Shown: in pieces, positions 6,502 through 54,641 of the stretch | Layout: the number at the start of each line of letters is the position of its first letter | Numbering within the stretch: position 1 is the stretch's first letter | Origin: Trichoderma breve | Lineage: Eukaryota; Ascomycota; Sordariomycetes; Hypocreales; Hypocreaceae | Assembly (NCBI RefSeq): GCF_028502605.1 | Contig: NC_079233.1 | Span: 6,014,001 to 6,078,000, forward strand | DNA: 64,000 bases | Direction: 5' to 3' | Program-made: the position numbers and the translations under genes | Notes under the pieces: generated by a model | The model's database searches: none | What the model saw: only the letters and a program-made list of their open reading frames with translations | What the model was told of the DNA's origin: nothing

Positions 6502-9500
6502 CTACTCCCCAGGCACGCTGAAAATCTCCTCAATGCCAGTCCAAGCACCCTTTGCACGCTCTTCCCAGTAGCTGTCCTTGCCCGTCTTGATCCTCCACAC
6601 TTCCTCTCCCTCCGGAGACTCTTCCGCCTTGACGAACCACCGTGGCTTGTGCTGCTCGCCTCGCTCTTCCAAGACGCGGCGACGAGCTCGCTGTGCTTCC
6701 TCCAGTTTGACCTTCCAGATCTCGGCCTCGTCTAGGTTGCCCTGCTCGGCGAGTCGCTGATCCTGACGCAATCTGCAGTCGGTCGGCGGCAGCTTGCCCT
6801 TCTCAATCTCTGTGATTTCGTTAAGCGAGGCTGCGAATGCCGTCATTCCATACGTCTGGGTAGGATTGTCCACCATTTTGCCGACATGCCAAATCTCTTC
6901 GCCTCCTGATTTTCCAGGGCCGGCCGTCTTGAGTCCGTTAGTCCAGGTGCCGGTGAGTCCACTGCCCGTGTTGCCGCCATCTGGTCCAAACGTCTCCACA
7001 TTGACATCTTCGGCTCTTCCACCAAACATGCCCTTGCTTCTAAACTCAACGGCTGCTTTGTGGCCGGTCGAGTCGTTGGTCACATTCATCGTTCCGACAG
7101 GCTCCACGTACTTCTCGCCCATTACCACGTTTCGCAAAAACATCGTGGCAATGTTCCACGAGTACAGCTCGTCTGATCCGTCTGACAGTCGCAGCACAAC
7201 TCTTACACGACCATCAGTCGTAATCTCGGCACTTTTGCCCCAAAACTTCTGACCTGGGGCGGCAGATTGAGAGAGCGACCAACTGGCAGATTCAGCTTGC
7301 ATAGCCAACTTGACAGGTCGATGTTGAACCTTCTCCACAAGCAAGCGGAAGCCGCCAGGGGTTTCCTTGTTCGAACGCACCAATTCAAACGTCTCTCCCA
7401 GCAGAGGGTTAAACGGCTTGCGGATAGCTCGCTCCTTGGCACGACCACTGCTAAACTGTGAGACGGCAAAGGCGGTAACGTACAGCAGTCGCTCGGTTAC
7501 CGATCCGCGCTTAGCAGCCTGGTCCAAAAGCTGCGCATATTCTAGTTGCTCTGCAATCTTCTGTAGCAGGGAGATGGGCTCGTTGGCGGAAACGGGCATG
7601 CTGATGGTACTAAGATCTTTGCCAACATTCTTCCGAACAAACGCAATCAGACTGGGGGGCAAAACCATCGCAGGCGGTATCCCGGTTCTTCGGCCAACTG
7701 TGACATCAAGAGGCAACGGAACAAGACTCTTTGGTTTGGCTGGAAATAGCGCGTTTGCGCCACCACTGCGCACCTCCTCCTCTTCGACGGATGAAATAGA
7801 CGAGTTATCATGCGAAGAGGCATCATCAGCGTCTGACTCGTGCGGCTCATCGTCGCTGGCATCAATCTTGACGACCCTTGTAGCATCTTCAGCGTCAAAG
7901 AATTCATCTCCTGTAGAGGTAGTATCCAAGCTCAGGCGAGAGGCGGCATCAGCAGACTTGGGCACCGGTATCCGGCGTCGTTTGCTGTTGTTGATGAGAA
8001 TGGTGAATTCACTGACAACAGAATCGAGGTCGGCCAGCAAAGCCGCGCAATGATCCTGCAAAGATTTTTCCTCCTGGGTCGCCCCTTTAGACCTGCGCTT
8101 GTTCGCATCAGTGTGGTCTTCGATCGTTGCTGAATCCGGCCGCAGCGTCGGAGGGGTTGAGGCCGATACGGAGTTACTAGACTTGCGTTTCCAGAAGGAC
8201 TTCTTCTCCGCTGCATCGCCACTTTCATCAATAGCACTCCCCGGTGGACCCAGGAAGTGGTGCGATGACGAAGACGTCGGTCTCGGTAGTGCCGCAACCT
8301 CCTTGGTTAGACGGCGCAGCGCATCACGAGTTCCAACAACGCGGCTAACCAGGGTTTCGACCTGCTGCCATTCAACCTCTTCGTCGCGGCCTCCATGGTG
8401 GCCAGCAAGGTTGTCTTGCTGTAGAGTGCGGTTGTCAACCTGCAAGCCAAGCTTTGGCTGCTGCGGCTGGCTTTCAAGGCCTCTCGCCAATTTGCTCGCC
8501 TTTTCAAGAGCTCGAGCCCAATCTTGAAATTCCTTGTCGTTGGGCGCTTTGAGGTGCCATACTTCAGCACCGGAATCTATGCTAATTTCCCTTCTTCTCT
8601 CATCGGCAGCAATGGCAGCCAAGCTCAATGGAATTGCTCCACGAAGAGCAGAGGAATTCCTGTTGTAGTAATAAGACAGGGTGCAGGTAGAGTAATCGAG
8701 GGAAAAGAAGCGTCTAGCATAACCCTGTCCCTTCTTACGTCTTCTCTTTGAAAGTGTTCCAACATGGTAATTGGCCGGCATAGTTGCTTCGGATACAGTG
8801 CGCGCATGGCCCTTGCTCGGGTGGCTGTGGAAGCTATCCACAGAGGCAGAGGGATCTCCCTCTCGGGTTGGCGGACTGCCATGCATACCCAAGCTGGTCT
8901 GGCTAGCATTCGGCATCTGCAGATTCGGGAGATGGTTGGCGCTCTGTGGAGCCGCACCGGTAGGATATGTCAGGACGACAAATGTGGCTGTCTTGGACGT
9001 TTGCTTGGAAAAGGTGTTGTCAAAGACCAGGCCATACATGCCCGTCTGCCCGAGGGGCACGTCGTAAGCCCCCATGGACACCTTGTCCGCCTCGCACTTC
9101 CCAAACCATTTTATCGATATAAAGCCCTTGCTGGAGAGGAGATCCTGCGCCGTGACATCTTTCTTGGCAAATCGGCTCGCTTTGCCCTCTGCAAGTTCTT
9201 GTGAGCTATTGGAGTCGAAACCGTCGCCGGCCGTGGAGGAGAGACCCGTAGCACCGCTGCCGGGGTGTTTAACGATGCCGAAGTTTCTAGATGGTTTCAC
9301 GGTCAATTAGGATTCACAGCAGAGTGCATTCGACTCTATAGAGCAGCAGCTACTCACATGGACTTTTTATGTGGTTGTACACTCCAGGAGAGGGTGTTCC
9401 CCTCCTCGACCTTGACCCAGCGGACAATGTAGGACTACATGATTTCCAGTCAGCCTTCTGCAGCCCGTTGCAGCTCGTTGCAGCCTTGGGAGGGAGGATT

Positions 9501-11775: not shown

Positions 11776-13977
11776 ATGACGGGGACTTTGAGCAAGCGCC
11801 AGCAGGCGCGTAATGAGGCGATTCTCCAAGACCTGGTACATTCCGTCCCAGGCAATGACCAGTGCGCCGACTGTCACGCGCGAAATCCATGTATGCATCT
11901 GCTGTCTCCGTTCGCACATCTCGTACAACCTCTTGCTAACCGCGACCTGTGTTACAGCTTGGGCATCATGGAGCGTACGATATCCTTTCCTCAACGACGC
12001 TGCGATTCGAGATGATAGATACTGACCTGTGCAATTACAGCTGGGAGTCTTCTTATGTATGCGCTGTGCTGCGATACATCGAAAGCTAGGCACGCACATA
12101 TCCAAAGTCAAGTCGCTAAGCATGGATGCATGGACGAATGAACAAGTTGATGTGAGCGAACGCCGCCCCTTTGTACAATGTTGTGGATGTAGGAAACTTA
12201 TCTGTTTGGGTCATAGAACATGCGAAAGGTCGGCAACACTACGTCGAACAAGATATACAACCCCGAGAACAAGACGGCATCGGTGCCTATTGACGTGGAT
12301 GAAGCAGACTCGGCCATGGAGAGGTTCATTCGCCAAAAATATATCAATACTGTCGCGGGCCAAGCTGGGAAGCTGAAAAAACCGCAGCTGGATGAAGGAA
12401 CTCCGCCACCGTTACCGCCCAAGAACTCCAAGTTCGGATTCAGATCGGCCTCGTCAATATTCCCACTGTCATCGCGAGCGAAGAAGGAGGCCAAGGCAGC
12501 CGCTGCGCAAGAGCTTGCGAATTCCAATTCTTCAGCCAACCATGGAAACCACGCAAACAAACAGTCCAAAGTCTTCGGAGCTTCTGTAGACTACGGCCAG
12601 GACGACACAGACAAGAAGCTGGCGAGACTACGAGACATGGGCTTCCAGGACGACCATCGAAATGCAACCATTCTAAAAGGAGTCAACGGCAACTTGGAAC
12701 GTGCCGTTGAGGCGCTCGTTCGTCTTGGCGAAGGCGAGAGTAAATCACCAGGGCCCGGCGCGGCTGCGGAACGGACGCTGCGAGCTTCAAGGTCGCTGAC
12801 ACCGGTAGGCTCGAATCCCGTGGGCCTCAACCTAGGTTTGAGCGTGTCCCAGAAGGAAGCGACTCCAGAACGCCCAATCACGGCTTCAGCAGCCTCTACG
12901 AATCCGTTCGATATCTTCCCGCCTGCTCAGCCCCAGACGGCTCATTCCACGGGGACACTCCAAACCAACAATCCTTTCATAAACTCGACGAATCCCTATG
13001 GAACACCAGCACAACAGGCCAGCCTTGTCACCCAAGCATTCCAGAACATGTCCCTGTCTCCGCAAGCTCAACCTCTTTTCCCCCATCATACTGGTGGAGT
13101 CATCTCGACGCCCCATCAGTACGCGATGTACTCTCAGTCTCAGGCTACCCCGTCAATGCCTCAGCAATATCAGAGCTTGAGCTTCCAGAATAGCATGACA
13201 TACCCTCAACCTGCCGCACAGCCCATTGCACCACAGCAGACGGGCTACAATCCATTCTTCACGCAGGCACCGACCCAGCAGTTTCAGCAGCAGGCACCTC
13301 AACAAAGTTTGTCGCTCAACACCAACCAGGCTGCGGCATATGCGAACAATCCCTTTACGCGATCACCGACCAGGATATCGTCGCCTTCTCTCACCCAGAT
13401 TCCAGAGCAATCTCTGCCTACCATTTTCCAGGCCCCAACACCACTGCAGCAACACCTGACTGGAACGAATCCCTTTTTGAACAATGGCGTGCAGCACCCC
13501 CAGCAAGTGACGCAGCAACAACCTCAGTTTTATGGACAGCAGCAGCAGCCTCAGTTTTATGGACAGCAGCAACAACTACACCAGCAACAGCAGCAGCAGC
13601 AGCAATATTATCAGCCTCAGCGTCAAGACAAGGCCTCCATCCTCGCGCTATATGGCCAGCCGCAAGCAGCACGTCCCACGGTTTCTGATCCCAACATACA
13701 CGCACAGACGCCAACTATCCCAGAGGACAGACCCATGCCAATGCAGGCCATGCATTCTCCAGCAGCTCCGGCCCAGTCACCTCTGAGCGCGACACAGCCA
13801 CTTGCAGGAAACAACAACCCGTTCATGAAGAGCGGGCCTCCGGCAGTAGCTCCAGACCCCTTTGCCACGGATCGCAAGATTAGTAGAGAAAGCATGAACC
13901 TGGGTATGGACATGGCATGGACGAATGGACGGCACAGCCCCGATGCCTTTGCAAGCCTCAGTGCGAGACACGGTTGA
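11776..13977 (+). CDS. GTS1: ArfGAP with UBA domain and Gln-rich tail (Gts1/Ucp3 type)
   Basis: Exons 11776-11890, 11958-11974, 12041-12151 and 12217-13977 give 667 residues. The ArfGAP module switches off Arf GTPases in vesicle traffic. Its zinc finger reads C-x2-C-x16-C-x2-C (CADC ... CMRC), and is complete only if the 17-nt second exon (SWASWS) is included; the invariant finger Arg follows in [22 protein letters not shown] domain lies near residues 210-255 ([20 protein letters not shown]). The rest is Gln/Pro/Asn rich with NPF repeats (TNPF, NNPF, NPFFTQ), which bind EH domains of endocytic proteins, and CAG tracts around 13500-13630. Yeast Gts1 has the same order: ArfGAP, UBA, Gln-rich. 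The ATG is the first that precedes the finger in frame. Confidence 0.9.
11958..11974 (+). other. 17-nt microexon of the ArfGAP gene
   Basis: Flanked by ACAG on the left and GTACGA on the right. With one base from exon 1 it encodes SWASWS, the conserved centre of the ArfGAP zinc finger. Skipping it would also break the frame (17 is not a multiple of three). Confidence 0.85.
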
Positions 13978-15598
13978 ACAGCTGGAGGAGTTAGATGTTG
14001 GCTGTGATTTTGTTTTGGTTTTACTTGTTTTGTTTTGATTCCTATTTTCCCTTTTCTATTACACCAGGCGCATATGCCAAAGCAAAGGGTTTGGCAAATT
14101 TGTTTATTATATATGCCTTGTGATGACTGGGCCTCAAGAGGGTTTTTAAAATCTATACCTGATAAGTCGTTTGGGTAGCGAGATGGAAAGGGCCCATCTA
14201 CCTAGGATGTAAGTAGTGGTCATAGCATACATGAATGTACATGGCAGGCGGCCGAGAAGTCTGTAGATGTAAACACTTGTCTCTTTTCTCCTTGTTTGGT
14301 TTCATCCACGGATCGATGAGTGTAGAGTCTAAGGGGTCAATAGCTTTGGGGATGAATGCGTTCGTGGTGTCTCACGGTGTCTCATTGTCTCATCGTTAGC
14401 AAACAGTGTTGATTTTGTCCATTGCCAAGTGAGTTGATTTGAGCTCTCCTGTAACCTCGTACTGAACTTAACCATACTCGTATGATTGAATCACAGCGTC
14501 TGGACTGAATCAAGACATGAGGCGCACAGACGGTCATACTCGGAGACACTTTGATACTGTGACAGCTGCACAGACACAAATGGAGTACATGACAGCAAGG
14601 TGGTTTTGCGCCCCCTTTTTAGCATCCATGTACCTGCCCTGTAGGTATAGACCTTGAAGCTAAGATGCTTTGGCTGAAAGCTGAAGCTTTGCTCATGCGC
14701 CCGTACTAAGCTGGATAAGGTTCAGGTTCACCTAGCAGCTAATGCACTATCACTGTAATTATCCAGAAGATTTGACAGCACGCCCGAGTGACACTTTGAA
14801 GCCCATCAATGTTGTTGAACCCACCATTACAGAGCATCAAATCAGCTCACCCCCGAAATCCCCCACCGTCAAACAGTGCAATCCATAAATGATCCCCATT
14901 GTACGAGGTCACGGCCTTGGCGAGAGAAAATTTCGTCATCAGCGCCGTTTGACAGCGGAAGCTCGGGGGCCGCAGACGGCGACAAACACGCTGGACGAAG
15001 GGTCACACTGTGCCACCGCACCCAGCCGGTGCGCCCCAAGACAGTGTCCACAAACGCCGAGAAGCTGTGAATCAGTCATCCAGCATGTGGGCTTGGCGGC
15101 CCGGATGATTGGCACTGGATGGAACTCCCAAGCGCCTCTTTCTCCGCTGGGCCACAGGCCCTGAAGCGCTGTAAGCGGCCTGCCAATGTCCCGCCGAACG
15201 GCCTGGAAGCGTCCACCTGCAAGTGCTAGTCAGCAAGCCGCCAATCCAGTTAAAGCGCACCACTTCTGCCGAATTTCCTGTGCTCCTCCGCTTTTTCCTT
15301 TTCCACCACCTGCACGCAATTTCACTGCAAAAAACCGCTTCGTCAAACTACCTGCCGTCTGACCATCAGCTCAACGAGCCAGCATCGCGAAATCGACCCG
15401 ATTACATCGCTCGAGACTTTAACCAAACAAACGCACCGACTCACATCTTCGATCAAGTCCTAATTGATCGCTCCGCTGCTCTGCACGACCCCTACCAATC
15501 ATTCGCCACCCACAGTCGACCTAGCCCGAGGCTCGGTATTTCCCATCTCTCTTTCAAGAAACAGATCTCCCAAGCGATCACCGTGGAATCCAACAGCA
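13978..15598. promoter_or_regulatory. Intergenic: ArfGAP 3' side and antizyme promoter/leader
   Basis: No supported gene. The right end is the antizyme leader: from about 15262 to the start codon at 15599 I find no ATG at all, giving at least 330 nt free of upstream start codons. The left end carries T-rich 3' UTR sequence of the ArfGAP gene. Confidence 0.55.
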
Positions 15599-16585
15599 AT
15601 GGCGCCAATGAGTAACCAAAGTATAAATTACAGTAGTAATTATGGCGAGGAGTTGACTGCCCGTGTCAACGTCCTTGCCTCCTGCTACGTTGTTGACTCT
15701 GCCGCCAACCTCAAGGGCCTCCACTACTGCACTACGGGGGTCACAGGTAAACTTCTTTCTTTCTTCTTCCAATTTCCTCGTCTTAAAGTCAGCCTGTTCT
15801 AACCATGCGTCTCTCGTATCTCCAGGGGCGGAGTGGTATTCCTGAGGTCCCTTCCTCAGGCCTGCCTTCTCCTCCGTCAAGTCCCCCCCTCGCCGCATTG
15901 ACCTCGTCCAACCAGCTCGCCCTTCTTCCTAAGCAGAAGAAGCGCGACATTCCAGACAGACGCCTGGAGCGACGAGGGGGGGCAGCACTCATGATCAGGG
16001 AAGAATGTGAGAGATTCTTCTGTGAGACCATGAAGACCGTGTTCCTTGGTGAGAGGAACCTGTCTATCAATGGCTCCGGCTTTTCAGGTGCTTATTTACA
16101 ATCGCCGCCACCCGACAACCACCTCGCGGATCCATTCAACCAGGGCCCGGACACTGTTCCGGCTGGCTCGCGGATCGACGCCTGGATGGAAGTCTGGGAC
16201 TACGCCGGCGGATCGAGCTTCCGCGCCTTTGTGGCAGACGATGGAAGGGAGAAGTCCCTCTTCATCTTCTTCGACATTGAAGGCGTGCTCGGAAGAGACT
16301 TGAAAAAGGCGTAAGTTGCTACCTTATTTTTGTCCAGCCGTGAGATTTGATCCCATTACTAATATCTCTTCTTATAGTCTTATGGCGCTCATCGAACTTG
16401 CTGATGGTCCCCTGGCCTGTAGCCAGATCATCACTTGTCTCGACCGCCGCCTACCTGCAGATAATGCTCGTGATTTGATCAAGAGCCTTCAATGGGTTGG
16501 CTTCGACATGGCCACGCTAGACCACTGGGCCAGTGACTTGGACGTGACTAGCAAACAGTGGATTTTCATGGGCATGGAACTCTAG
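15599..16585 (+). CDS. OAZ: Ornithine decarboxylase antizyme, +1 programmed frameshift
   Basis: Exon 1 is 15599-15746, exon 2 is 15826-16310 and exon 3 is 16378-16585. Frame 1 makes a 55-residue leader ending in AEWYS at TCC-TGA (15840-15845). Skipping T15843 lets translation continue at GAG (15844) in the +1 frame to TAG at 16583-16585, giving 279 residues in all. The C-terminal half has the antizyme fold signature: DAWMEVWDYAGGSSF, the DLKKALMALIELADGPL helix and the ending WIFMGMEL. Antizyme binds ornithine decarboxylase, blocks polyamine synthesis and uptake, and sends the enzyme to the proteasome; polyamines raise frameshifting, closing the loop. UCC-UGA is the classic antizyme shift site. 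Two in-frame Met codons (1 and 4) lie at the start. Coordinates for a single product: 15599-15746, 15826-15842, 15844-16310, 16378-16585. Confidence 0.94.
15840..15860 (+). promoter_or_regulatory. +1 ribosomal frameshift site with overlapping inverted repeat
   Basis: Slippery element TCC (15840-15842) followed by the frame-1 stop TGA (15843-15845). CCTGAGG (15841-15847) and CCTCAGG (15854-15860) are perfect reverse complements around a 6-nt loop, so the stop codon lies inside a predicted 7-bp stem. The shift is well supported; the role of the stem is untested. Confidence 0.85.
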
Positions 16586-17150: not shown

Positions 17151-18852
17151 TCACAAGTCTCCATCAAACTGTCGTATCAGTAAACCCTTGTCCTGGAGGA
17201 AATCCTTGACCTGTTTTACTGTGTACTCTCCTCGGTGGAACATGCCAGCCCCAAGGGCGGCATCCGTAGTAGTCTTCTCAAACACCTCCTCAAAGTGTCC
17301 CGGGTTACCGGCGCCGCTGGATGCAATGACGGGGATCTTGACAGCGTTCTTGACCTGCTGAATGAGCTCAAGATCGAAGCCGCTGTTGGTACCGTCCTTG
17401 TCAATGCAGTTGAGCAAAATCTCTCCCGCGCCCATCGCCTCGACGGCCTGCGTGAGCTCCACAACGTCCATATCGCGTGTCTCGCGGCCGCCCTTGATGG
17501 TGCAAGCGTACCAGCAGAAGGCCTCGCCTTTGGGGCCGGGGAACTTTGTCTCGACGATGGCGTGGCGGGTGGCATCGAGCTTGGGGACGTAGACGCGCTT
17601 GGGGTCGACGCTGACGACGACGGCTTGCCTGCCGTAGGCGCGCGAGATTTGCTCGATGGCGGTGTTGCCAAAGAGCTTCTTGCCGAGAGAGTAGTATTCC
17701 TCGGCGGCCAAGACGGCGTCGGATCCGATGGAGACCTTGTCGGCGCCGGACTTGAAGTACATGGTGGCAATATCAAGAGCGGAGACCTTTGTGCCATCCG
17801 TGTCGACGGTGTCGCGGATACCACCTCCGATGGTTAGAGGCACGAAGACGGTTAGTGAGGTCTGTCGGAGGACCTCCAGCATGGGAAGATCGGCGAGGGG
17901 GCAGTCGCGGAAGGATGTGATGTTGAGGAAGGTGACTTCATCGGCACCGGATTCGTAGTATTTCTTAGCCATCTCCACGGGTTTGCCCAGGTTGCGGACA
18001 TTGCGGTCGGCACCCTTTTCGCGGACGTCGTACTGGTCTCCTTTTGTGACGACGAGATCGCCTTGGTCATTGGTTCGGACGTCAAGACAGGCAATGAGTC
18101 GGCGAGTGAGGCCGTCCTTGTGGCCCGCTGATGCGACGTCGGATGGCAGATCAGCTCCGAGGTTTTGTGCTCCGGAGCCGGTCAAGAAGGCCTTGATCGT
18201 CCGAAGGCCGGCAACGCCAGACTTTTCAGGGTGAAATTGGGTAGCGTAAATGTTACCCTTTGCAATGGCGCCAATGAATGTCTCGCTCCCGTAGGTTCCT
18301 GTCGCAACTGTCCAGCCTTGGGCTTCGAGCGTGCCTTTGCTGTAAGGGGACTTGTAGGAGTGGACGTAGTAGTATTTTGAGTCTGGTCTCAGGTCATACA
18401 TGACCTTGCCTCCAGTGTTGGCGTTGTTCCATCCAATATGCGGTACCGATTTGTCGCTTTCATCAAAGTGAGTGAGATATGAAGGTATCACGCCGAGACC
18501 GGGAACCTCAGGATCTTCCTCTGAGCCTTGGAAGAGGGCTTGGAGGCCAACACAAATGCCCATAAACGGCTTGCCAGCTTCAATGTGCTTTTTAATGGCA
18601 GGCAGATAGTTTGCCTGAGAAAGCTGTGTCATGCAGTGGCCGAAGTGGCCGACACCGGGCAAAATGAGTTTCTGTCACGACAGGTGAGTAAGTGGTACAA
18701 TTTCCAACGGTGACAACGGCCATTCAAACCTCTGCCTTGGGCACATCTTCGGGAGACCGGACCCAGTCTACCTCATAACCCAGCTTTTCAATGGCATTAA
18801 CCAGACTGCGGATATTGCCGGCGACGTAGTCCAAGAGGTGAACCGTGGGCAT
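17151..18852 (-). CDS. HIS7: Imidazole glycerol phosphate synthase HisHF (histidine biosynthesis)
   Basis: Exons 18852-18730 and 18671-17151 give 547 residues. This fused enzyme releases ammonia from glutamine and uses it to turn PRFAR into imidazole glycerol phosphate and AICAR, the fifth step of histidine synthesis and a feed into purines. The N-terminal glutaminase has nucleophile Cys81 in [10 protein letters not shown] and the His188/Glu190 pair in FHPEKSG. The C-terminal (beta-alpha)8 cyclase starts near residue 227 with catalytic Asp238 in ACLDVR and Asp465 in [10 protein letters not shown]. Length matches the fungal fused form. The start is the conserved [17 protein letters not shown]. 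The 58-nt intron uses an unusual donor, GTTTGA, but the join restores the conserved [12 protein letters not shown]. Confidence 0.97.
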
Positions 18853-19450: not shown

Positions 19451-20975
19451 ATGGCAACCTCAGCAGCTGCAGTGGCAACAGGATCCACGACCACGGCCAC
19501 AGCAGCGACAGCAACAGCATCACCATGGCTAGGAGATGAAGCTGGCGCCTTGAATGCCGATACAGTCTTGCAGCAGGTCTCTCAAGATGACCAGGATGAG
19601 TGGGAATACGAATACTCTGCCACCGAGACAGAGGTAAGCTTTATGCTCCTCTCCAACATACGCGTTCCTGGATATTAACACCCATGTCACCAACTAGACA
19701 TACTACCTAACGCTTGAACTGTCCTATCCAGAGTTCAAGGATCGTCCAGCAAAAGCCCACCATCACAGCCGTGGCGGGTATTACAAGAACTGGTCAGATC
19801 AGTATGCCGACCACCTGAAGTTGGACGCCAAGCCTGACCTTGCCGTCGGCCAGCAAGACCCCAATCATAATGAAGATGACAATGGTAAAGACAATGACCA
19901 AAATAATGAAGAAGCCCCTGAACCGGAGGAGGAGGTGCCGCTGGAAGAAGAGGAGGAGAACGCAGAGGACGCAAACATAGATCCTCGTCTACGAGCTATG
20001 GGGGACGACAGCCATAATGCCACAACGAAAACAGCGAAGCAAGGGAAAAAAGACAAAGGAAAAGGAAAGGAGAAAGAGGTAGAAACCACGAAAGCGGCAC
20101 CAGAGGCAACAGAAGGTGACGAAGAGTCGGCGAACGACCCCCTGGAAGAAATACAGATACTCGAACTTCACTCTCGCAATCCGATTATATCCTACAGAGG
20201 TCGAGTGTTTGAGGGACAATGGGCAGAGGTTATTGGCACAGAGGCAATATTGACCGATCGTGAAGCCAAAGATGCCGCTCAGTTACCTGCTCTTCGTCAT
20301 CTTCCCGGCGGTGTGGATATACTCGGAGCAAGCTCTTCGCGCATCTTGACCACCGAAAAGATTCTGAAACCCAGAGTTGCCCAAGAGGACTCTTTGGCGG
20401 CCATTCGCGAGGAGTGGAACATTCGCATCCCCCCAGGGAAGGATAGGACCGGTGAAAGAGCGCAGCAGTTGCGCTTCCTAGAGAATCTCATCGCCTTGAA
20501 GAAGAAAAGGGGGGATGCAGATGAAGTTACAGTATATGCGATGGATGGCCCTGGAAAAGATTTTGACGACAGAAAGGGACCAGATTTTAAACCTCGCAGG
20601 AAAAAGCCTAGTCTCGGCGTCGATCAAACCAACGGGGCCAGTCAGAGTGACAGAAGAGAACGTCGATATACAAGGCGAAGCCAGGGTCGCCGAGGCGGTA
20701 GACGAAGAAGGGCATCTGCTGCGAGAGGAACATCAGCGGCAACGGATAGGGGCGCTGGTTCAGGTTTGGATTCGAATACGCTGTCCACGCCCACGCCAAG
20801 TCACTGGGACGAACTCTTTGGGATTCAAGATGACGAGGACGATAATGATAACGATAGTCTCAACGACATCTACGAGGACAGTGATGAGCCAGAAAGAAGA
20901 CGGGCGGGTTCCGATGATGAGAACGAGGACGACGATGGGGACGAAGATGACAACGATGCTATGATACTGGACTAG
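19451..20975 (+). CDS. TFIIIC tau55-related subunit (TFIIIC subunit 6 type)
   Basis: Exons 19451-19633 and 19698-20975 give 486 residues. TFIIIC binds the internal A and B boxes of tRNA genes and recruits TFIIIB and RNA polymerase III. The TFIIIC_sub6 beta-barrel signature is split by the intron: DEWEYEYSATETE then TYYLTLELSYPEF, and continues after an acidic insertion with ISYRGRVFEGQWAEVIGTE. A Ser/Thr/Ala-rich N-terminus, a highly acidic insert (about residues 115-160), an Arg-rich patch RRGGRRRRAS and an Asp/Glu-rich tail ending MILD are visible. Fungal relatives carry similar disordered tails. The barrel is well recognised; the precise ortholog name (such as S. pombe Sfc7) is inferred. 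Confidence 0.88.
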
Positions 20976-23900: not shown

Positions 23901-24416
23901 CTTTTCTTTTTTTTCCCTCTCTATTCTTCCCCACCTCCTCTTTGATATCGCTTGTGATCCGCTTGGCCATGTCGCCAGGGGAGTCGTGATTAGTGCTTTT
24001 CGCATCGTCGGTTCCCCTTCGTGATGCACTTATAATAGGCCTTACATTCCTCACCCTGTCTCAACTTATATCCGCTTCCAGCCCCAGCCGCGCCCCGGAC
24101 CTCCCGCTTCTTCCGGAACCTGGGCCTGTCGACATCTGTCGTTCGTTCTTCTCGTTCTTTTTCATGAAGGTCTTCCTGCACGACATTTATTCCCTCTTCT
24201 TCCAACAGACATTCGCCGTCATCCTTTGTTCGCAGCCTTACCAGATCGATCGTCATTCCACATCATAGCCACCTCGAACAGTCCAGCTGACCGTCCTCGG
24301 CTCCCGGCAATCGTGCTTTATAAACCGTCCACCACCCAGCTACCTATATCCACCTCGATCAACACGCATATACTTCGACCTGTCGTTGCCGATCGCTCCG
24401 GCGCATCGAAGCCGCC
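20976..24416. other. Gene-poor interval of about 3.4 kb upstream of the Vps62-like gene
   Basis: No supported gene; open frames on both strands are short, overlap each other and match no family I know. Visible items: a perfect 14-bp palindrome ATGGTCGCGACCAT at 21991-22004, a GTACTCCGTAC element at 22374-22384, and a GTAC-rich block at about 23230-23850. The last 500 bases are C/T-rich and are probably promoter and leader of the next gene. A non-coding RNA cannot be excluded. Confidence 0.5.
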
Positions 24417-26030
24417 ATGTACTGGCTGCGACGCTTCACCATTGTGACGGTGCCGCTGGCGCTCATCATCTTCGTGGCCACATACCTACCTGTTATCCTC
24501 GATCCCTCAAACAGAGGCCCTGAGAGTCGCGCTCGTGATAGACTCTGGGTCAGCAGCAGTCCCTACTTCTGGGATCGCCAGGCCTGCCGATGGATTAGTC
24601 TTTGTGGCCTGCACCACCTGAGAAGGGACCCTGCCGTGCTCCCGCCCATCCTCGACGACGACCCTGAAGATGAGCTTTTGAGAGTGGAATTGCGTAAGCG
24701 CATGGATAGCAAGCGAATGGACCGTACGTGGGAGGAGGATGCTGAGCTCAACGCCCCAAACCCTGAACTGCGAAAAAGCAAGAGGTCCGATATGAAGAGA
24801 AACCCAAAGGAGCGACGGAGGATCCTCAGAGACGTTCCCCAATATGTTCTCGATCATGCCCCGCTGGTACACCTCTACTCTGGCGAGCAATTTTGGCCGT
24901 CCGACATTCGCGAGCACATCGAGCACATGACTGTCACGGTAGATCATAAACGAGTCAACTTGACCGAGAAAGTATCACTGCACAACCTGCAGGCACTCAA
25001 CCGCTACGACAACCAGATGGTCACGCTTCACAGCAGAGAGGACGTTGAATCTCGACCAAGTTGGCTCCATAGCCATGATAACCTGCCAAGCCCATTCGAT
25101 GACCCTGATGCTTCTACGCCGCCTCCCGTAGGGAACGGTAGAAAGCCGCATAGCGAGCCCGACACTTGGTTTGATGTGGACAAGAAGCATCCTGTGCATC
25201 GTATCTCGGATCCCCGGAATCATAACGTCCCCGCATATGCTCCCACGCCCAGCCCTGGCAAAGAGCAGCAAAAGGTCATTCCGCGCGGCCACAAACCAGA
25301 TCCCGACGGCTACTCCAAGGCGCCAGCTACTCTTGTCCTTGTGGATAAGGGCTCGGGCATCGTTGATGCTTTTTGGTTCTTCTTTTACAGCTATAATCTA
25401 GGGCAAACTGTGATCGGCCTGCGTTTCGGAAACCATGTGGGTGACTGGGAGCACTGCATGGTGCGCTTTCAGAACGGCGTGCCCCGTGGCATTTTCTTCT
25501 CTGAGCACGAGGGTGGTCAGGCGTACGCTTGGGAGGCAATTGAGAAGCGTGGCATCAGACCCGTCATTTACTCGGCCGTTGGCTCCCATGCCATGTATGC
25601 TCTTCCCGGCAACCATCCCTACGTTCTGCCCTTTAAAATGCTCAAAGACGTTACGGACAAGGGACCGCTATGGGACCCCGCGCTGAACAACTACGCTTAT
25701 TTTTACGATTATACACTTGAAAATCCAAAAGACACCATCGAGCACGAGGACGGCATCGCAGAGCAAGGGCTCACGCACGACACACACAGCTTCACCCCTG
25801 CCGCGTCCAATCCGGATGCTCCTGTTACGTGGCTGCACTACCAGGGCCGATGGGGCGATGAGACTTACACTCTTGCAGATATGCGACAGTGGCGTCTCTT
25901 TGGCCAGTACCACTATGTGACCGGACCCAGTGGGCCTAAATTCAAGAATCTCGAGCGCCAGACGCTCTGCCCGGCGAGAAACTGCCGCCTGCTCTACGAG
26001 ATTGACCCCAAGGGCACCTGGTACCATTAG
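24417..26030 (+). CDS. Vps62-family protein, membrane-anchored
   Basis: A single exon of 537 residues with a good start context (GCCGCCATG). The family is named for yeast Vps62, linked to vacuolar protein sorting; the molecular activity is not settled. Residues 7-29 form one hydrophobic segment (IVTVPLALIIFVATYLPVIL), so a signal anchor is likely. The conserved core is at about 300-430: VDAFWFFFYSYNLGQ, GNHVGDWEHCMVRF, EHEGGQAYAWEA and AVGSHAMYALPGNHPY. His, Asp and Glu residues in these motifs are highly conserved and could bind a metal, which is my inference. The C-terminal part has YQGRWGD and CPARNC. Bacterial and plant relatives (DUF946) share the GNHVGDWEH block. Confidence 0.9.
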   Translation: MYWLRRFTIVTVPLALIIFVATYLPVILDPSNRGPESRARDRLWVSSSPYFWDRQACRWISLCGLHHLRRDPAVLPPILDDDPEDELLRVELRKRMDSKRMDRTWEEDAELNAPNPELRKSKRSDMKRNPKERRRILRDVPQYVLDHAPLVHLYSGEQFWPSDIREHIEHMTVTVDHKRVNLTEKVSLHNLQALNRYDNQMVTLHSREDVESRPSWLHSHDNLPSPFDDPDASTPPPVGNGRKPHSEPDTWFDVDKKHPVHRISDPRNHNVPAYAPTPSPGKEQQKVIPRGHKPDPDGYSKAPATLVLVDKGSGIVDAFWFFFYSYNLGQTVIGLRFGNHVGDWEHCMVRFQNGVPRGIFFSEHEGGQAYAWEAIEKRGIRPVIYSAVGSHAMYALPGNHPYVLPFKMLKDVTDKGPLWDPALNNYAYFYDYTLENPKDTIEHEDGIAEQGLTHDTHSFTPAASNPDAPVTWLHYQGRWGDETYTLADMRQWRLFGQYHYVTGPSGPKFKNLERQTLCPARNCRLLYEIDPKGTWYH

Positions 26031-27461: not shown

Positions 27462-30452
27462 TCAGTTGTCATCATCTTGGTGGATGCTAAATTCTGATGA
27501 TGCGCGATCGGTCTGGTCCGGCCACGCCTTTTGCGTGCTTGGATACTCAGACGGCGGCTGGCTGCTGTTGTCGCTCTCGTGCTCCACCTCCATGGCGTTG
27601 GGGTCGACGTTTTCGCCGTCCGAATGGTGAGCGTTTTCTTGATCTTCGAGACCAGGCCAAGCGACGTCCCGCTCTCGCTCCCGCATCCATCCGGGGTAGC
27701 TATTCCGAGAGGAGGAAAGGGGCCGAGCAACTGGCTGTGCACTGGTGATGCTGGTTTTCTCGTCGTCCCCATCGTTGCCGTAGTCGTTTTCGTCGACAAA
27801 GGATTGGTCAGAGCCGCTGCTCTCGAGTATCTCAAAGTCAATATCATCGTCTTCGTCATCGTCGGCGTCAGAAGGGGGAGCTGATTCAAAAACGCTGCTT
27901 CCTCGTTCTATTAGGACTTCCCCATGGGCAGCGATGCTGTAAGGCGTAGCATAGCCACCTGGCGTAGTGCCCCGAGCAGGGGTCGTGCCCCTGCCAGGAG
28001 TTGTGCCTCGGCCAGGGGTTGTGCCACGGCCGGGAGTGATACCTCGACTAGTGTGGCGATCGTGATGACCGATGGATGCAGGAATTGGCGATGCGGTCCT
28101 CCTCGGCGTGAATCGAGGATAGCTGGGCGATCGAGCACGGCGCCTCTTCCTAACACCAGCCTGAGGTACGCCATGAACGCTCGGTGAGGACCGCCGGCTG
28201 TACCCACGGGATGCGAGTCGCTGCCTGGGATGTCCACTCTGGATCATTGTGGAGCTGATGGTTGCCGGCGATGTCCTAATAAAAGGCGCCTCTGATCCCT
28301 CTCGACTCCTTGTTATCGATCTTTGGAGGCGGGCAGCGGCAGCCGGGCTGGTCGCTCGGTACGAATGGTTGGCAGAAAAGTATTCTACCGAGGGCGATAT
28401 TGACACCCTGTGCCTTTCCTGGCGGTGTTGTATGGTGGGGGGTTGCGCATTTGGCGATTCGTCAAGCAGCTCATTCCATGCCCAACACTCTTCAAGGGAA
28501 TCCGCCTCGGGCACTTCTTGTGACTCCGTAACGTCAGGATACGCCGGTGGTACGTCTTTTAGCCTCTGCCATGTCCAGGCCGAGTCATATGCTTGATAGT
28601 CCTGGAGGTATGCGTCAGGATGGGTAACGAACAACCTAGGTTCCGTTGCCTTCATCATGACGGAGGCCAGAAACTGCACGTCCCAAAGTGCCGGGGTCGC
28701 CATTTCGTCGGGACTAAGGAACCGTAGTCGTGAATCTTTGTGGATCTTCCGCAGAGGAACCCATGAAGACTGCAGCCCCATGAACTTGGATGCCTTCAGG
28801 CCGGGGCTTTGAGGTCTCGTATACATCTGCATATCACGGAATACATTTCCAAAGGCAGCTAGCATCGCCATGCTGACGCTTCTCGCATCTGGCGCCTTTA
28901 CTTTTATGGTCTTCACCAGCCCGCGGCTCCTCAGACGCTCGTCGGCAGCGCTCTTATTACCACAGGCCCTGGGAAACAGCCATTCCCTGCCATGGTCATG
29001 CGTGGGCCAGTCGCCCATAGCCGGAGATTGGGCTCTAGGTGTGGATGTGCTCAGCGTCATGGGAAGCTGAGTCCAGTCGTCTCCATTTTCGGTATTGGGA
29101 TCTGTTGGGAATAGGTTCATATGCTGCCAGACCCTTTTGAGAGGAAACGGAAGAAAGACAACCTCGACCTCCCACGGGTTATTCCAGGTAGGCATGATGG
29201 ATTGAAGTTGGTCGACCTGGGCTTGTAGCGACTGGAGCTGGCTGTATACTTCTTGTGAGCGACTCGGTCGGTTAGCCGCACTGGAGCTGACCGAAACCAT
29301 ACTTGGGCTGGCAGCATCCTCCTGGCGATCGTGACGGAGACTTGCATTGTCATCAAGAACGCGCCTCTCAATGTCCTCTACTTTGCTCTCCAGCTCAGTG
29401 ACACGAAGGTCCATGTGTTCATACTTGTCTTGACACTCCTCGTGGGCGCTGCCGGAGAAGGAGAGCGTCTCCAGCCTATCAAGTCGTTGTGCGTGGCCAC
29501 CGACAGTGTCAGCGAGGTTCTTCAGCGTCTCACGAGGTATGGCCTCAACTGCGGCTGCAACCCGGGGTTCGATTTGGGTAGTAGCAGTGTCCGGCCGTGA
29601 GGGTGATTCCTCATCAGGGGCCAAGAAGACGAATGTCTCTTCGACGCTCGCAGTCTTCTGCTGCGTAGGAGATTCTTGCAAAGCAGTCTGGGCAGCGGAT
29701 TGCTGTAGCATTCCAGCTGGACTATTGTGGCTGAGAGTCTGTAAGCCTTTCCCAGCAAAGGGCCTGAGGTACCTGGTGTGCATGGAAGAAGTGGTGGAGG
29801 CCGTCTGGGACATGAGACACTGAGCAGGAATAGGTGGCAATGCATTACGGGCATCTGGTTGGGTTGGTGGTATGATGTTTGTCCAGGCCATTGTATCCGG
29901 CATTGAGTTGGATGCCTGCTTGGGCGTGGGAACGGCTCCTAGAGTATCGAAGGGACCGTCGAAGGATTTCTGTAGAAAGGATAGCGGGGGAGCTCCATTG
30001 AAGCTGATGAGTTCGGGTCCAAGCACTGCCGCCGTTTCCTTTGGTGAGATGAGATCCAGAGTCGGGCTTAGGGGGTCTAGTCGTTGTCTAGACTGTAGTT
30101 TCTCGAGGTCGAGCCCGGTGTTGGGAGTTGGCATTCTCTCTGCCGGCAGTGGCAGTGGCAGTGGCAGTGGTTGAGGCTGAGGCTGATCTCGAGGTCGCTC
30201 ATCATGGAAACACGCATGATGGTTGCACATGCACCATCCAGCCTGGTCCACGACGGGGCTTCCCGTAGATTGGAAAGACCAGAAGCGACGGCAGCCGCAT
30301 CGCGCTCCTCCAGCGCCGGGCGTCAAGTCCACATAATTGCACCCGCCACTAGGGAGTTGAGGAATGGCGGTGCGCACGACTGGGGCGGTTTCATGATAGA
30401 GGTCGAAGAACTCAGCGCCGAATTGAGGTGTGTCGAATGGGTTCGCGGCCAT
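27462..30452 (-). CDS. Uncharacterised protein with N-terminal Cys/His cluster and coiled coil
   Basis: One open frame of 996 residues; I do not recognise a named family. Near the N-terminus a Cys/His cluster is visible: C38, then CGC (52-54), then CMCNHHACFH (74-83), which has enough ligands for one or two zinc ions. A Pro/Leu repeat follows, then a predicted coiled coil at about 310-370 (RLDRLETL, ELESKVEDIERRVL). A better-ordered region lies at about 430-650, with GLVKTIKVKAPDARSVSM and YDSAWTWQRLKDVPPAYPDV. Then come basic RS-like sequence, five RGTTPG-type repeats (27957-28046) and an acidic tail. The ordered middle and Cys cluster suggest a conserved Pezizomycotina protein. A nuclear or RNA-linked role is possible but not shown. 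Confidence 0.8.
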   Translation of the reverse strand: MAANPFDTPQFGAEFFDLYHETAPVVRTAIPQLPSGGCNYVDLTPGAGGARCGCRRFWSFQSTGSPVVDQAGWCMCNHHACFHDERPRDQPQPQPLPLPLPLPAERMPTPNTGLDLEKLQSRQRLDPLSPTLDLISPKETAAVLGPELISFNGAPPLSFLQKSFDGPFDTLGAVPTPKQASNSMPDTMAWTNIIPPTQPDARNALPPIPAQCLMSQTASTTSSMHTRYLRPFAGKGLQTLSHNSPAGMLQQSAAQTALQESPTQQKTASVEETFVFLAPDEESPSRPDTATTQIEPRVAAAVEAIPRETLKNLADTVGGHAQRLDRLETLSFSGSAHEECQDKYEHMDLRVTELESKVEDIERRVLDDNASLRHDRQEDAASPSMVSVSSSAANRPSRSQEVYSQLQSLQAQVDQLQSIMPTWNNPWEVEVVFLPFPLKRVWQHMNLFPTDPNTENGDDWTQLPMTLSTSTPRAQSPAMGDWPTHDHGREWLFPRACGNKSAADERLRSRGLVKTIKVKAPDARSVSMAMLAAFGNVFRDMQMYTRPQSPGLKASKFMGLQSSWVPLRKIHKDSRLRFLSPDEMATPALWDVQFLASVMMKATEPRLFVTHPDAYLQDYQAYDSAWTWQRLKDVPPAYPDVTESQEVPEADSLEECWAWNELLDESPNAQPPTIQHRQERHRVSISPSVEYFSANHSYRATSPAAAARLQRSITRSREGSEAPFIRTSPATISSTMIQSGHPRQRLASRGYSRRSSPSVHGVPQAGVRKRRRARSPSYPRFTPRRTASPIPASIGHHDRHTSRGITPGRGTTPGRGTTPGRGTTPARGTTPGGYATPYSIAAHGEVLIERGSSVFESAPPSDADDDEDDDIDFEILESSGSDQSFVDENDYGNDGDDEKTSITSAQPVARPLSSSRNSYPGWMRERERDVAWPGLEDQENAHHSDGENVDPNAMEVEHESDNSSQPPSEYPSTQKAWPDQTDRASSEFSIHQDDDN
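27957..28046 (-). repeat. Five 18-nt tandem repeats inside the 996-residue gene
   Basis: The units encode RGITPG, RGTTPG, RGTTPG, RGTTPA and RGTTPG on the minus strand. In-frame repeats of this type can vary in number between strains. Confidence 0.9.
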
Positions 30453-32870
30453 TGGTATAAGTCGTGATTGCGTCCAGCGTGAGAAGCGGTGGAATGTGAG
30501 TAGAAGGGGATCAGGAGTCGTGGAAGCGTCGGGCTCGCTCGTTGCGGAATTGACAGGCTGGCGGTGATGCGCTCAATCTCGGAGGAACGCAGATTTGAGC
30601 GTCGCACATGAGCAGGCCCAGACGGGTCGCAGGCTTGGTCGGCCTTAGTTCATGGCACGAGTAGAGGAGAACGAAGAAAAGACAAGAAAAGATGAGTTTG
30701 TGGAGGCCGCGGTTGAGAGCAGCTGTCGGTGTCGGGACGGTTGAGGTCGCAGCGGAAATAGAATGCCCACGATGGTGGCTCGAGGGAGCGGGTAAAAGCG
30801 AAAATGCGGGCGACGGTAGAGTATTTATACCGGTCTATGGCGGGCGAAGCATTGCTGACTGGAGAGAAAGTAGAAGCAAAGACGGACGGCAGAAGAAAAA
30901 TGTAGAGGCAGTTGTCAAGTAAAGAGTAAGAGAGTAAGAGGATGGGATGCGGGAGAGCAGAAGCACGGGGATGCATCGAAAAGGTGGGAGCTTTGGGTCT
31001 GGCTCTCCACATTTCGGCTCCCTCGAACGCGCCTTTCTGCCCGCTAGAACGAGACAGGCACGGCTAAAGCTGCAGCTCTTACGGAGTCCTAGATAGCGAG
31101 TGGTTGCCTCACATTGCGGAATGGCAGCCTGGAAGCAACAGATGGCACTTTTACAGTATAAGGCGCATCAGATGGACGTCTTGAGTGGTTGCTTGCGATC
31201 GGAATCTATGTAGTCTTACGGCTTCGTCCAGACGGTATCGAATCTAATAGGTGCAAAAGCGCTGCACCTGATGGCTGCGAGATGCCCGTTCGTTGGTGAC
31301 CTTGGGGAGACCATGACTGGAGAGTGCCAGACAGGGATAATGCAGCCATCATCTTGTCCGACGCTGGTTCCTCTGGGGTACTCTTTCATTCGTCCTGGTT
31401 CCGCATCTGCCGGGCCTTGATGCCCAATGTCACCTTATACACACGGGAGCCCGTTGTCGCTGGTGTTGTTCGCTACAAATTCATCATCTAGAAGGCCTCA
31501 ACTGTTACAGTCATCTACTCTATACAAATCACATAGTAGCGGTGATATGAACTACCATCAACACACTCAGCCTGCCCTCTCCCAAACACAATAACACAAT
31601 AACATCAACAAACAAATAAGTCAAAAACCGCAATAACAAAAACATCTTCACCAAAACCAAAACTAAAAACATCCATCCATCCTCCCTTCCCACCCCGCCA
31701 ACAAAACCGACCACTTTACGCGGTGATCTTCTTCCCCCCCAAAATCCCATCTCCCATCTCCCTTGAAACGCGACCAGTGCTTAAACACGCCGGTCCAAAA
31801 GCCTGCCCACAATGGAAAGCAATTCCCCCCAATGGCATCGGTCGAATACAATGGGGCACCGTGTCTTGTCGGCATGGCCCGTGCCTTTTTTGCACTAATG
31901 TCAAAGTGCCTATTTAGCAGTTGTATTTTACGGCGTGGCGCTGTCTCACCGGAATCAATCAAACAGAACATACAAGTAGCCATCAAGTCCTGTCGTCATC
32001 CATTCAAATCCTCGAGAAATACAAATTTGATGTAATGGTAGATCTTCTCACTCTGTATCTTCATATTTGATTATGTCTTCAATCACAAAATGCTGGCTCT
32101 CCCACATCGACGGCATCCAACCAACAAAAGCCCCCCCAACTCTCATCAGGCTGCCCCACCACCCAATCTTTCTCTCGTGGGCCCCGTGCCATCATCAATC
32201 ATCCATTGTAATTCCACACGACCTCATTAAATAGTATACCTATTTATTTTATGAGTTACTCATGATTCTGCAATCAACATCGAAGAATACAGCTTAACAA
32301 TTACTCCATACACAGTGAGAAAATAATGATCAACATAGCCTCGTCTCGTCATCATCATCGTCATCACGGGTTCGATCCGGTGGGCCCCCTTCCCGCCCTG
32401 CATGGACACGACATGCCATCGAGCCACTAACTGCCGTTTCCTCAGTCCTTCCGCGCCATACAGACCCCTCTTCTTCCTCTCAGCCGCATATCAGATGCAT
32501 GGAATGCCACGTCGTAAGTCAATAAGTGATTATATTCGAAATCCCCCCTTTTGGGAGAGGGTTGAGAGCGTCCCTTTGTAAGAAAAAGGTCCGTGGTCTC
32601 ATCTTTGAGTATGGATTTGTCCAAATATGTCTATAACCAAGCCATGTAAAAGAAAAGAAAAGGAAAATAAAAGAAACGCCGCTTCCCAGCATGTCCCATC
32701 ATTAACATCACTCGTCTCGCGCCAACAAAATCCATTATGCCTTGCTCTTGAATGGAAGTAAACAAATCAATGCTCGCCTAATAATGCTGCTGTAAGCCAT
32801 GCCAGAAAAAAAGTGAAAGAATATGTGAATGTATCGAGTAAACCCATGTATAAACAGCGCATCGCTTCTT
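30453..32870. other. Intergenic, about 2.4 kb: upstream of one and downstream of another minus-strand gene
   Basis: No supported gene. The left part (to about 31020) is probably the promoter and leader of the 996-residue protein gene. The right part (31500-32800) is A/C-rich with CAACAA and CCCCCC tracts and is probably 3' UTR of the neighbouring gene plus spacer. Confidence 0.5.
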
Positions 32871-34577
32871 TTAAACTTCGCCCCAGCTGCCCATCGGGGC
32901 GTTGGGAGCAGTGGCAATCATTGATCCGGTTCCGATGGATCCTCCAATGTCCCAGTAGTGTCTCGATGAGACGCTGCTTCTCCTGGCTGATCGTCGTGTG
33001 CTCTGGCTGGCACAGCTACTGTGGTGTCGCATAGCCACGGGGCTGCTAGGTGCAGTTGCTTTGAAAGCTCGACGTTCATTAGGGCGAGTCCGGGAGGTGA
33101 GGGGGTGGTGCTGCCTTACTCTGGCAGCCTTAGCGGCAGCGTCTTGCGGCTTTGCAGGAACCGGACGGGTCGTCAACTCAGGAGACAATGTAGGCTCGGG
33201 TTGCGATGTGAAGCGTGATACCAAGTATCGGAACACCAGCTTGATATCAATCTCTTGCTCCCACTCCTCTTGGGTAAATGTATCGGCCATCGACACATCG
33301 TGTAATAGAATGTCTTGCGCATTTGGCCTTTGCGATGGCCTGTCGGTCGCTCGTGGGATATGCCTCATGGTAGGCCTGAACTCAGGGAACGCGCTTTCAC
33401 CATGCCTGTCTGCCGCGGCACGCCCCGAGGTAGAGGTGCGGCCGTCTGCGGTCTCTGGTATGGCAGGCAGACCGGCATAAGGCAGAGGTACCTGATGGAC
33501 ATGCGAATACGTCGAAAAGGCACCAGGGTGCTTTGAGAGATGGTTGACCAGCAAGCCGAGCTCTCTCGACACAGTCTCAAGGATGCGCATGTGCCATGAT
33601 TCCTCTGTTTCCGCGGTCGGTTCGTCGTGGCCATGCTCTGACGGCCGCGGCGTCCTAGATAGCTCCTCGTCGCTTAAAAGGTCGCCACCAAGCACCACTG
33701 ATAGTATCTTCTCATCTATGCCGAGAATATCGCGCAGTACCTTGCGAGTGATTCTCGTAATGAAACCTTCGGTGTCTTCTTTGTCTTCTGGGTGGGTATC
33801 GGGATCTTCCTCGTGCCAGGTCATGTCCTCCGAATCGGTAGCTTCCTCCGCCTTGGGCACGGGCTTTTGTGTAACAACCCGCTTCTGCTGCAGCATCCTC
33901 GTCCGCCGTGCCTCTCGCTGGACTTCCTCTAGGATGATGCGGCTATGCTCCAATCGCCAGGCTTCAATCCGCTGCCTCTTCTCGGCCTCTTGGACTTGTG
34001 CCTGTTCCAATTCGAACTGGGCTTCATCGAAGCTATTTAGCCTTCTTCGTACTCGCCTGGGGTTAAATCTCTCGAACTGGAAGATGTGGTCCTGCGCGTC
34101 TTGGCCAAGCGTAGGTTGGTCTAAGTGGAATGATCCCAGGCCATCGTGGGCTGGGAGGACGGGCATCATAAAACTACTCCTCGGGAACGATCTAAATCCA
34201 GGAAGATGGCCATCGAGACTATCCAACTCGGCATCATCCTGAGACTCATCAACAGCCGCAGAGAGAGCCGATGACTGGGCTTCGTCATTTTGAGCCGCTG
34301 CCGCCACTGAACCGGTTCTCGCAACTGTATTGAGGCTGCCGAGGTCACTTACTCGTGACCGGCCGGGGGTCTCGAGCGATTGGTCATGTTCATCTTCGGT
34401 GAGGTAGGAGGTGGTGGTCACATCGGTGGGAGGCGAGAAGAGCACCCAGGTCTGCGCTTCCTCTGGTTCTTGGTCATAGGTGCTGCGCGCCGATCGCCTC
34501 GAAAGGCCCTGGCTACCAACAGCGGAGCGAGCTGCTCGCTGCACGCTCGGGCGGTTTGGCTGCTGCTGAAATGCCAT
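32871..34577 (-). CDS. Uncharacterised mostly disordered protein with basic helix
   Basis: A single exon of 568 residues; family not recognised. It begins with a Ser/Arg/Gln-rich stretch. A charged helix at about 186-235 (EAEKRQRIEAWRLEHSR, EEVQREARRTRMLQQK) may be coiled coil. A compact region at about 270-345 (ITRKVLRDILGIDEKIL, ILETVSRELGLLVNHLSK) and another at about 440-470 (EEWEQEIDIKLVFRYLVSRF) look ordered and are probably the conserved parts. The tail is rich in Arg and Ser. There is no signal peptide or membrane segment. Codon use and lack of stops over 1.7 kb support a real gene. It sits about 2.4 kb from another unknown gene on the same strand, but nothing ties them functionally. 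Confidence 0.75.
   Translation of the reverse strand: MAFQQQPNRPSVQRAARSAVGSQGLSRRSARSTYDQEPEEAQTWVLFSPPTDVTTTSYLTEDEHDQSLETPGRSRVSDLGSLNTVARTGSVAAAAQNDEAQSSALSAAVDESQDDAELDSLDGHLPGFRSFPRSSFMMPVLPAHDGLGSFHLDQPTLGQDAQDHIFQFERFNPRRVRRRLNSFDEAQFELEQAQVQEAEKRQRIEAWRLEHSRIILEEVQREARRTRMLQQKRVVTQKPVPKAEEATDSEDMTWHEEDPDTHPEDKEDTEGFITRITRKVLRDILGIDEKILSVVLGGDLLSDEELSRTPRPSEHGHDEPTAETEESWHMRILETVSRELGLLVNHLSKHPGAFSTYSHVHQVPLPYAGLPAIPETADGRTSTSGRAAADRHGESAFPEFRPTMRHIPRATDRPSQRPNAQDILLHDVSMADTFTQEEWEQEIDIKLVFRYLVSRFTSQPEPTLSPELTTRPVPAKPQDAAAKAARVRQHHPLTSRTRPNERRAFKATAPSSPVAMRHHSSCASQSTRRSARRSSVSSRHYWDIGGSIGTGSMIATAPNAPMGSWGEV

Positions 34578-53095: not shown

Positions 53096-54641
<1,546 letters not shown>

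Follow-up and report, generated by a model that had tools for sequence, protein, structure and literature searches.

A conserved antizyme gene of Trichoderma breve with a predicted +1 frameshift at UCC-UGA

We analyzed a window of 64,000 nucleotides (nt) of Trichoderma breve DNA, located on contig 2 of the nine contigs of the genome, in which positions 15599 to 16585 hold a three-exon antizyme gene divided between an upstream open reading frame (ORF1) and a second frame (ORF2) lying at +1 relative to it (Table 1). Joining of the exons produced a frame 0 of exactly 55 codons that runs into TCC (15840-15842) and TGA (15843-15845), reproducing the original prediction, made from the letters alone, of a 55-codon frame from the ATG at 15599 that ends at TCC-TGA. 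When T15843 is omitted from the joined exons, an open frame of 279 residues results, and the join at this base proposed for UCC-UGA is thus exact. The distance from the end of intron 1 to the shift codon TCC measures 14 nt and not the 15 given at first. The description of two introns flanking the shift is apt for intron 1; intron 2 begins approximately 466 nt 3' of the ORF1 stop codon and can hardly be called flanking. Over the almost 400 bases that precede ORF1 (15200-15598) the plus strand has no ATG, so scanning ribosomes would reach ORF1 first. A promoter and terminator scan gave results at chance level only.

Table 1. Features of the antizyme locus, in window coordinates.
Feature	Position	Strand	Description and basis
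Exon 1	15599..15746	+	ORF1 codons 1-49 and first base of codon 50; exon joining, ORF1 homologues
Candidate stem-loop, ORF1 first half	15644..15679	+	Arms 15644-15657 and 15665-15679; folding controls
Conserved ORF1 peptide, N24 to T46	15668..15736	+	Conservation; first beta-hairpin of the AlphaFold 2 (AF2) model; structure alignment
Intron 1	15747..15825	+	79 nt with GT-AG borders; A of the branch-like CTAAC at 15802
Exon 2	15826..16310	+	Last part of ORF1, shift site and first part of ORF2
Block GAG-UGG-UAU-UCC-UGA	15831..15845	+	Module A and shift site; no variation among 12 base-level decodings (11 relatives and the window)
Candidate hairpin around shift site and alternative acceptor	15835..15866	+	One sequence only
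Shift site UCC-UGA	15840..15845	+	T15843 is the base predicted to be skipped
Alternative acceptor CAG	15857..15859	+	In-frame ORF1-ORF2 fusion without frameshift; many public models
Intron 2	16311..16377	+	67 nt
Exon 3	16378..16585	+	Remainder of ODC_AZ domain and stop

The Pfam domain ODC_AZ covers residues 166-279 of the 279-residue fusion (profile positions 1-114 of 114, E-value 1.5e-45), placing the antizyme domain in the +1 frame past the ORF1 stop, as had been proposed. Searching the 38,549,885-base genome with ODC_AZ returned two matches, which are two exons of this same gene, and no second antizyme gene was found. A single match to the ornithine decarboxylase (ODC)-type family PF02784 is present in the genome, at C1:1571271-1571966. 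Among the matches listed, the closest protein relatives are all from Trichoderma, at 96% (Trichoderma sp. SZMC 28012), 94% (T. virens), 91% and 88%. The sequence has the two ORFs and the +1 offset at the ORF1 stop that characterize antizymes, and the predicted model has the antizyme (GNAT-like) fold. Neither genome_contigs nor viral_contigs, which hold bacterial, archaeal and viral collections, contained nucleotide relatives of the antizyme, and the site pattern had no viral matches.

The break between the two frames recurs in relatives. A search with ORF1 only, using a query that itself ended in WYS, returned 97 proteins, all of them listed, and 82 end in WYS (80 in GAEWYS and two in GVEWYS). 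The 97 matches comprise 67 that are uninterrupted, 15 with an insert of intron size and 15 stopping elsewhere. Fifty-five of the uninterrupted matches are known from raw contigs alone, in clusters that may contain members unlike the listed protein; the longest contig is at least 10 kb in 21 of them and under 3 kb in 23. Raw ORFs would be unspliced, as the 15 insert cases suggest, and the short contigs may then be complementary DNA and the long contigs lineages without intron 1.

Conservation at the site extends to individual bases. All 62 proteins that our pattern identified as reading across the site in the +1 frame show GIPEV, which corresponds to GG-UAU-UCC-UGA; P0095, which lies outside the script pattern, reads GFPEV. 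Third bases in relatives were inferred from proteins in the overlapping frame. In 11 of these exon 1 is likewise translated in the +1 frame, and together with the window they gave 12 decoded sequences; two sequences were decoded in a separate analysis. As a rough yardstick, TAT accounts for 39% of the 198 tyrosine codons in 16 long, uncurated stop-to-stop frames of the window. Because the species are related, the counts at the site are not independent. A scan of the window with an 18-base site pattern was discarded as a chance test, being empty: it re-found only its source site. The UGG counted among antizyme frameshift stimulators is present two codons 5' of the shift codon (UGG-UAU-UCC-UGA). 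According to excerpts of a 2016 review, most antizymes use UCC-UGA as their shift site, and UGG is strongly conserved (PMC5009743). Our data indicate that many filamentous ascomycetes have retained this recoding switch down to the individual bases.

These findings support a genuine and conserved antizyme gene with a +1 frameshift design, of an already-known kind, and the proposed reading by +1 shift at UCC-UGA finds support in the domain, the predicted fold and the conservation of site and ORF1. We consider it highly likely that the antizyme of this gene, the only antizyme gene found, is made by a fraction of ribosomes skipping T15843 at UCC-UGA, and that it closes the polyamine feedback via ODC. 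ORF1 would be translated until UCC occupies the P site and UGA the A site, where termination, the probable fate of many ribosomes, would compete with skipping of the U; the fraction that skips T15843 would resume at GAG in the +1 frame and produce the 279-residue antizyme. To the gene anatomy, domain, predicted fold, site and ORF1 conservation and single ODC-type match seen directly here, the antizyme family adds, by analogy, the occurrence of frameshifting, its increase by polyamines and the action of the product on ODC. We infer from that family that a higher polyamine level would favor the skip, and that the antizyme would bind ODC and mark it for the proteasome, forming a feedback loop on polyamines.

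Several observations weigh against this interpretation. PDB matches of the profile search were weak, with E-values from 0.0025 to 0.0069, and a single-sequence search of PDB sequences returned no match. The 3' region 15846-15930 folds no better than shuffled sequences (z score 0.30, without pseudoknot modelling), no Rfam family was matched, and no 3' stimulator was found. The alternative acceptor appears in 40 of 120 and two of 13 of the public proteins sorted below, and some of these may rest on RNA-seq.

Two-frame antizymes are known from other fungi. Those of Schizosaccharomyces pombe and of the filamentous ascomycetes Emericella nidulans and Botryotinia fuckeliana were described by Ivanov et al. 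2000 and, according to excerpts of the paper citing that work, likewise have two ORFs joined by translational frameshift (PMC3432380). In Saccharomyces cerevisiae OAZ1, too, the frame changes by +1 at the codon that terminates ORF1. In contrast to the fungal antizymes of Ivanov et al. 2000, the predicted fold of the T. breve protein takes in ORF1. The AlphaFold model contains a beta-hairpin from ORF1 (residues 24-33/38-45; block pLDDT, the predicted local distance difference test, of 69, 79 and 59). This model came from a 91-sequence alignment and has a mean pLDDT of 62.6, after a poor model with a mean of 57.6 from 46 sequences. Structural alignment to human antizyme begins at model residue 24. 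The human antizyme 1 construct spans residues 69-228, which we take to be the ORF2-coded part. The matched residues, from 101 and 98 (4zgy and 5bwa, respectively) to 218, lie within this construct, whereas in T. breve the matching hairpin is predicted to be encoded by ORF1.

According to this model the shift would lie inside the antizyme fold in this lineage, with ORF1 forming the first beta-hairpin. If ORF1 supplies the first two beta-strands as predicted, the fold would be incomplete with ORF2 alone, making the shift a strict gate. We tentatively suggest, as a possibility short of an expectation, that Sordariomycetes and probably Leotiomycetes have such a split fold, with the hairpin from ORF1 and the rest from ORF2, and that the ORF1 peptide in the exit tunnel, together with a stem-loop, may also tune the shift. 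If true, peptide, fold and RNA signal would be superimposed on approximately 30 codons, and the domain could not be made by either frame alone. Literature listings and excerpts of PMC3432380, PMC6920978, PMC2375905, PMC5640933 and PMC12661321, a partial coverage of the literature that is not proof of absence, described neither a hairpin encoded by ORF1 nor a nascent peptide for any filamentous ascomycete antizyme.

Conservation of ORF1 could also reflect a nascent peptide that stimulates the shift as in Agaricomycetes, instead of or besides a structural hairpin. Two peptide blocks in ORF1 are near-fixed, at codons -32 to -26 and -18 to -10, while third bases vary among the 12 decoded sequences at Y30, V32, L38, K39, G40, H42, T46 and A51. 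At the moment of the shift the codons of these blocks should be within reach of the exit tunnel. The same pattern was taken as evidence for a stimulating peptide in Agaricomycetes (PMC4505036). However, the codons of T45 (ACT), Y43 (TAC), G47 and G50 (GGG) do not vary in the 12 sequences, so the contrast between peptide and third bases is not absolute. Sequence choice fixed residues 50-55 in our 68-sequence conservation table, and the other ORF1 alignment was selected on motifs at residues 26-28 and 42-46, where conservation is partly due to that selection. The predicted hairpin and its alignment to human antizyme explain the conservation without a stimulator. A fixed peptide with synonymous third-base change, the Agaricomycete-type pattern, is thus present, and a structural cause is as good an explanation; on balance we regard the stimulator as rather unlikely.

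Comparison with the Agaricomycete mRNA (PMC4505036) reveals similarities and differences. Both have a conserved ORF1 peptide and a module A adjoining the shift. The Agaricomycete shift site is UUU-UGA where that of T. breve is UCC-UGA, and the stimulating peptide was mapped to codons -15 to -5, as compared with the two fixed blocks found here. The Agaricomycete stem is located 106 nt 5' of the site, also within the first half of ORF1; counted along the spliced RNA, 81 nt separate the 3' end of the T. breve stem-loop from its site. Neither the AAAU nor the 3' double stem of Agaricomycetes is found, as the first 72 bases of ORF2 contain no AAAT and the fold of 15846-15930 has no double stem. In excerpts of the 2016 review, bioinformatics had pointed to nascent-peptide control of antizyme frameshifting only in Agaricomycetes (PMC5009743). 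The conserved ORF1 described here offers a direct test of whether such control is wider or ORF1 is kept as part of the folded protein.

Two RNA hairpins were considered. None of 200 shuffles was as good as the stem-loop at 15644-15679 (z score -4.18), and nine of 2000 synonymous resamplings were equally stable. It was the best of 66 windows across the gene (z score -4.21), and a close second in ORF2, from fusion codon 185 (z score -3.83), is nearly as far out, so the 5' stem has a near equal within the gene. In the two separately decoded sequences, both from Colletotrichum, GGC or GGT GAG and CTT GCC keep six pairs with one C-G changed to U-G; a seventh pair forms only if codon 18 is GCC, where the decoding permits GCC or TCC. 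A residue whose codon could begin with G at position 18, seen in 171 of 181 sequences, was rejected as support for the stem, as the variable columns 5, 8 and 11 have comparable proportions. For the hairpin around the shift site, which would also mask the alternative acceptor (z score -2.59), four of 200 shuffles and 51 of 2000 synonymous resamplings were as stable. Both beat most controls and rest mainly on one sequence, making them candidates.

An antizyme could also be obtained without frameshifting if alternative splicing joined donor 15746 to acceptor 15859, a junction that is open in frame and gives a 268-residue frame-0 protein, or by other splices. We examined how public proteins treat the site in 133 sequences (P0001-P0120 and P0218-P0230), made up of the 120 listed of 392 full-protein matches and 13 further proteins from 88 matches. 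Eight come from raw contigs alone and the others have an ncbi source. The true fusion junction (W.SEVP) is present in none of the 133, in keeping with the original expectation that ordinary gene callers would fail here, and searches relying on such models therefore use wrong sequences. Forty-two splice to the alternative acceptor; 43 are joined to ORF1 before the site is reached and read through it in the +1 frame, 19 show +1 read-through without the HYCTT part of ORF1, 13 have an intron that removes the site, one consists of ORF1, and the remaining 15 have just ORF2 or were classed as other; P0222, in the latter group, resembles a variant of the alternative-acceptor class. According to excerpts of PMC2375905, the tool OAF was created because the +1 shift complicates automatic antizyme detection.

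With a broader pattern, which differs from the first in a few members, the equivalent junction occurs in 42 of 230 proteins. All 42 carriers have ncbi among their sources, and it is absent from the proteins known only from raw contigs (sources jgi, lgn and ena), with 0 of 4 among the listed full-protein matches, 0 of 4 in the search with 88 matches and 0 of 82 in the ORF1 search, although genomic ORFs could not show splicing. An in-frame splice, which the original prediction held to be incompatible with its reading, thus exists on paper and in ncbi-source proteins, and is not seen in raw-contig ORFs. Acceptor 15859 is the fourth AG past the branch-like motif, at 57 nt versus 23 nt for 15825, and the 21 raw clusters with a longest contig of at least 10 kb and ORF1 uninterrupted to WYS suggest intron-less lineages. 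Models from different Trichoderma species also use different splices, a variety among near relatives that points to forced models rather than biology. From the sequences we judge use of acceptor 15859 to be an annotation artefact, and a splicing bypass improbable. The splices in the public models examined appear contrived, and conceal the frameshift switch.

Still less probable is translation of ORF2 from a start of its own, by leaky scanning to the ATG at 15991 or from the ATG at 15805 on an mRNA retaining intron 1. Both are in the ORF2 frame, and the earlier statement that no ATG suits ORF2 alone was too strong: the ATG at 15991 opens 175 residues containing the entire Pfam domain, and public proteins P0032, P0106 and P0108 begin there. 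However, the ATGs at 15599, 15608 and 15642 would be scanned first, the context of 15599 is G at both -3 and +4 as against C at -3 for 15991, and the predicted first hairpin would be missing from the product. Such a start also leaves the base-level conservation of the site and that of ORF1 unexplained. That T15843 arose through a sequencing error, or that this is a pseudogene, is a negligible possibility, favored by nothing except the frame break itself, since the same break recurs in the 82 of 97 ORF1 relatives that end in WYS followed by a stop.

The antizyme gene converges with a minus-strand frame at 17154-18674, approximately 565 bases from its stop, that encodes glutamine amidotransferase and His_biosynth domains and is presumably a HIS7-type imidazole glycerol phosphate synthase. 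Four long frames elsewhere in the window had no Pfam match at an E-value of 1e-5: 12217-13974 (+, 586 residues), 27465-30572 (-, 1036 residues), 32874-34649 (-, 592 residues) and 40495-42546 (+, 684 residues). Other frames encode an oxysterol-binding protein (6505-9306, -), a TFIIIC subunit 6 domain (19698-20972, +), part of a Vps62-like domain (24324-26027, +) and a PRP1-type splicing factor (54498-57425, +).
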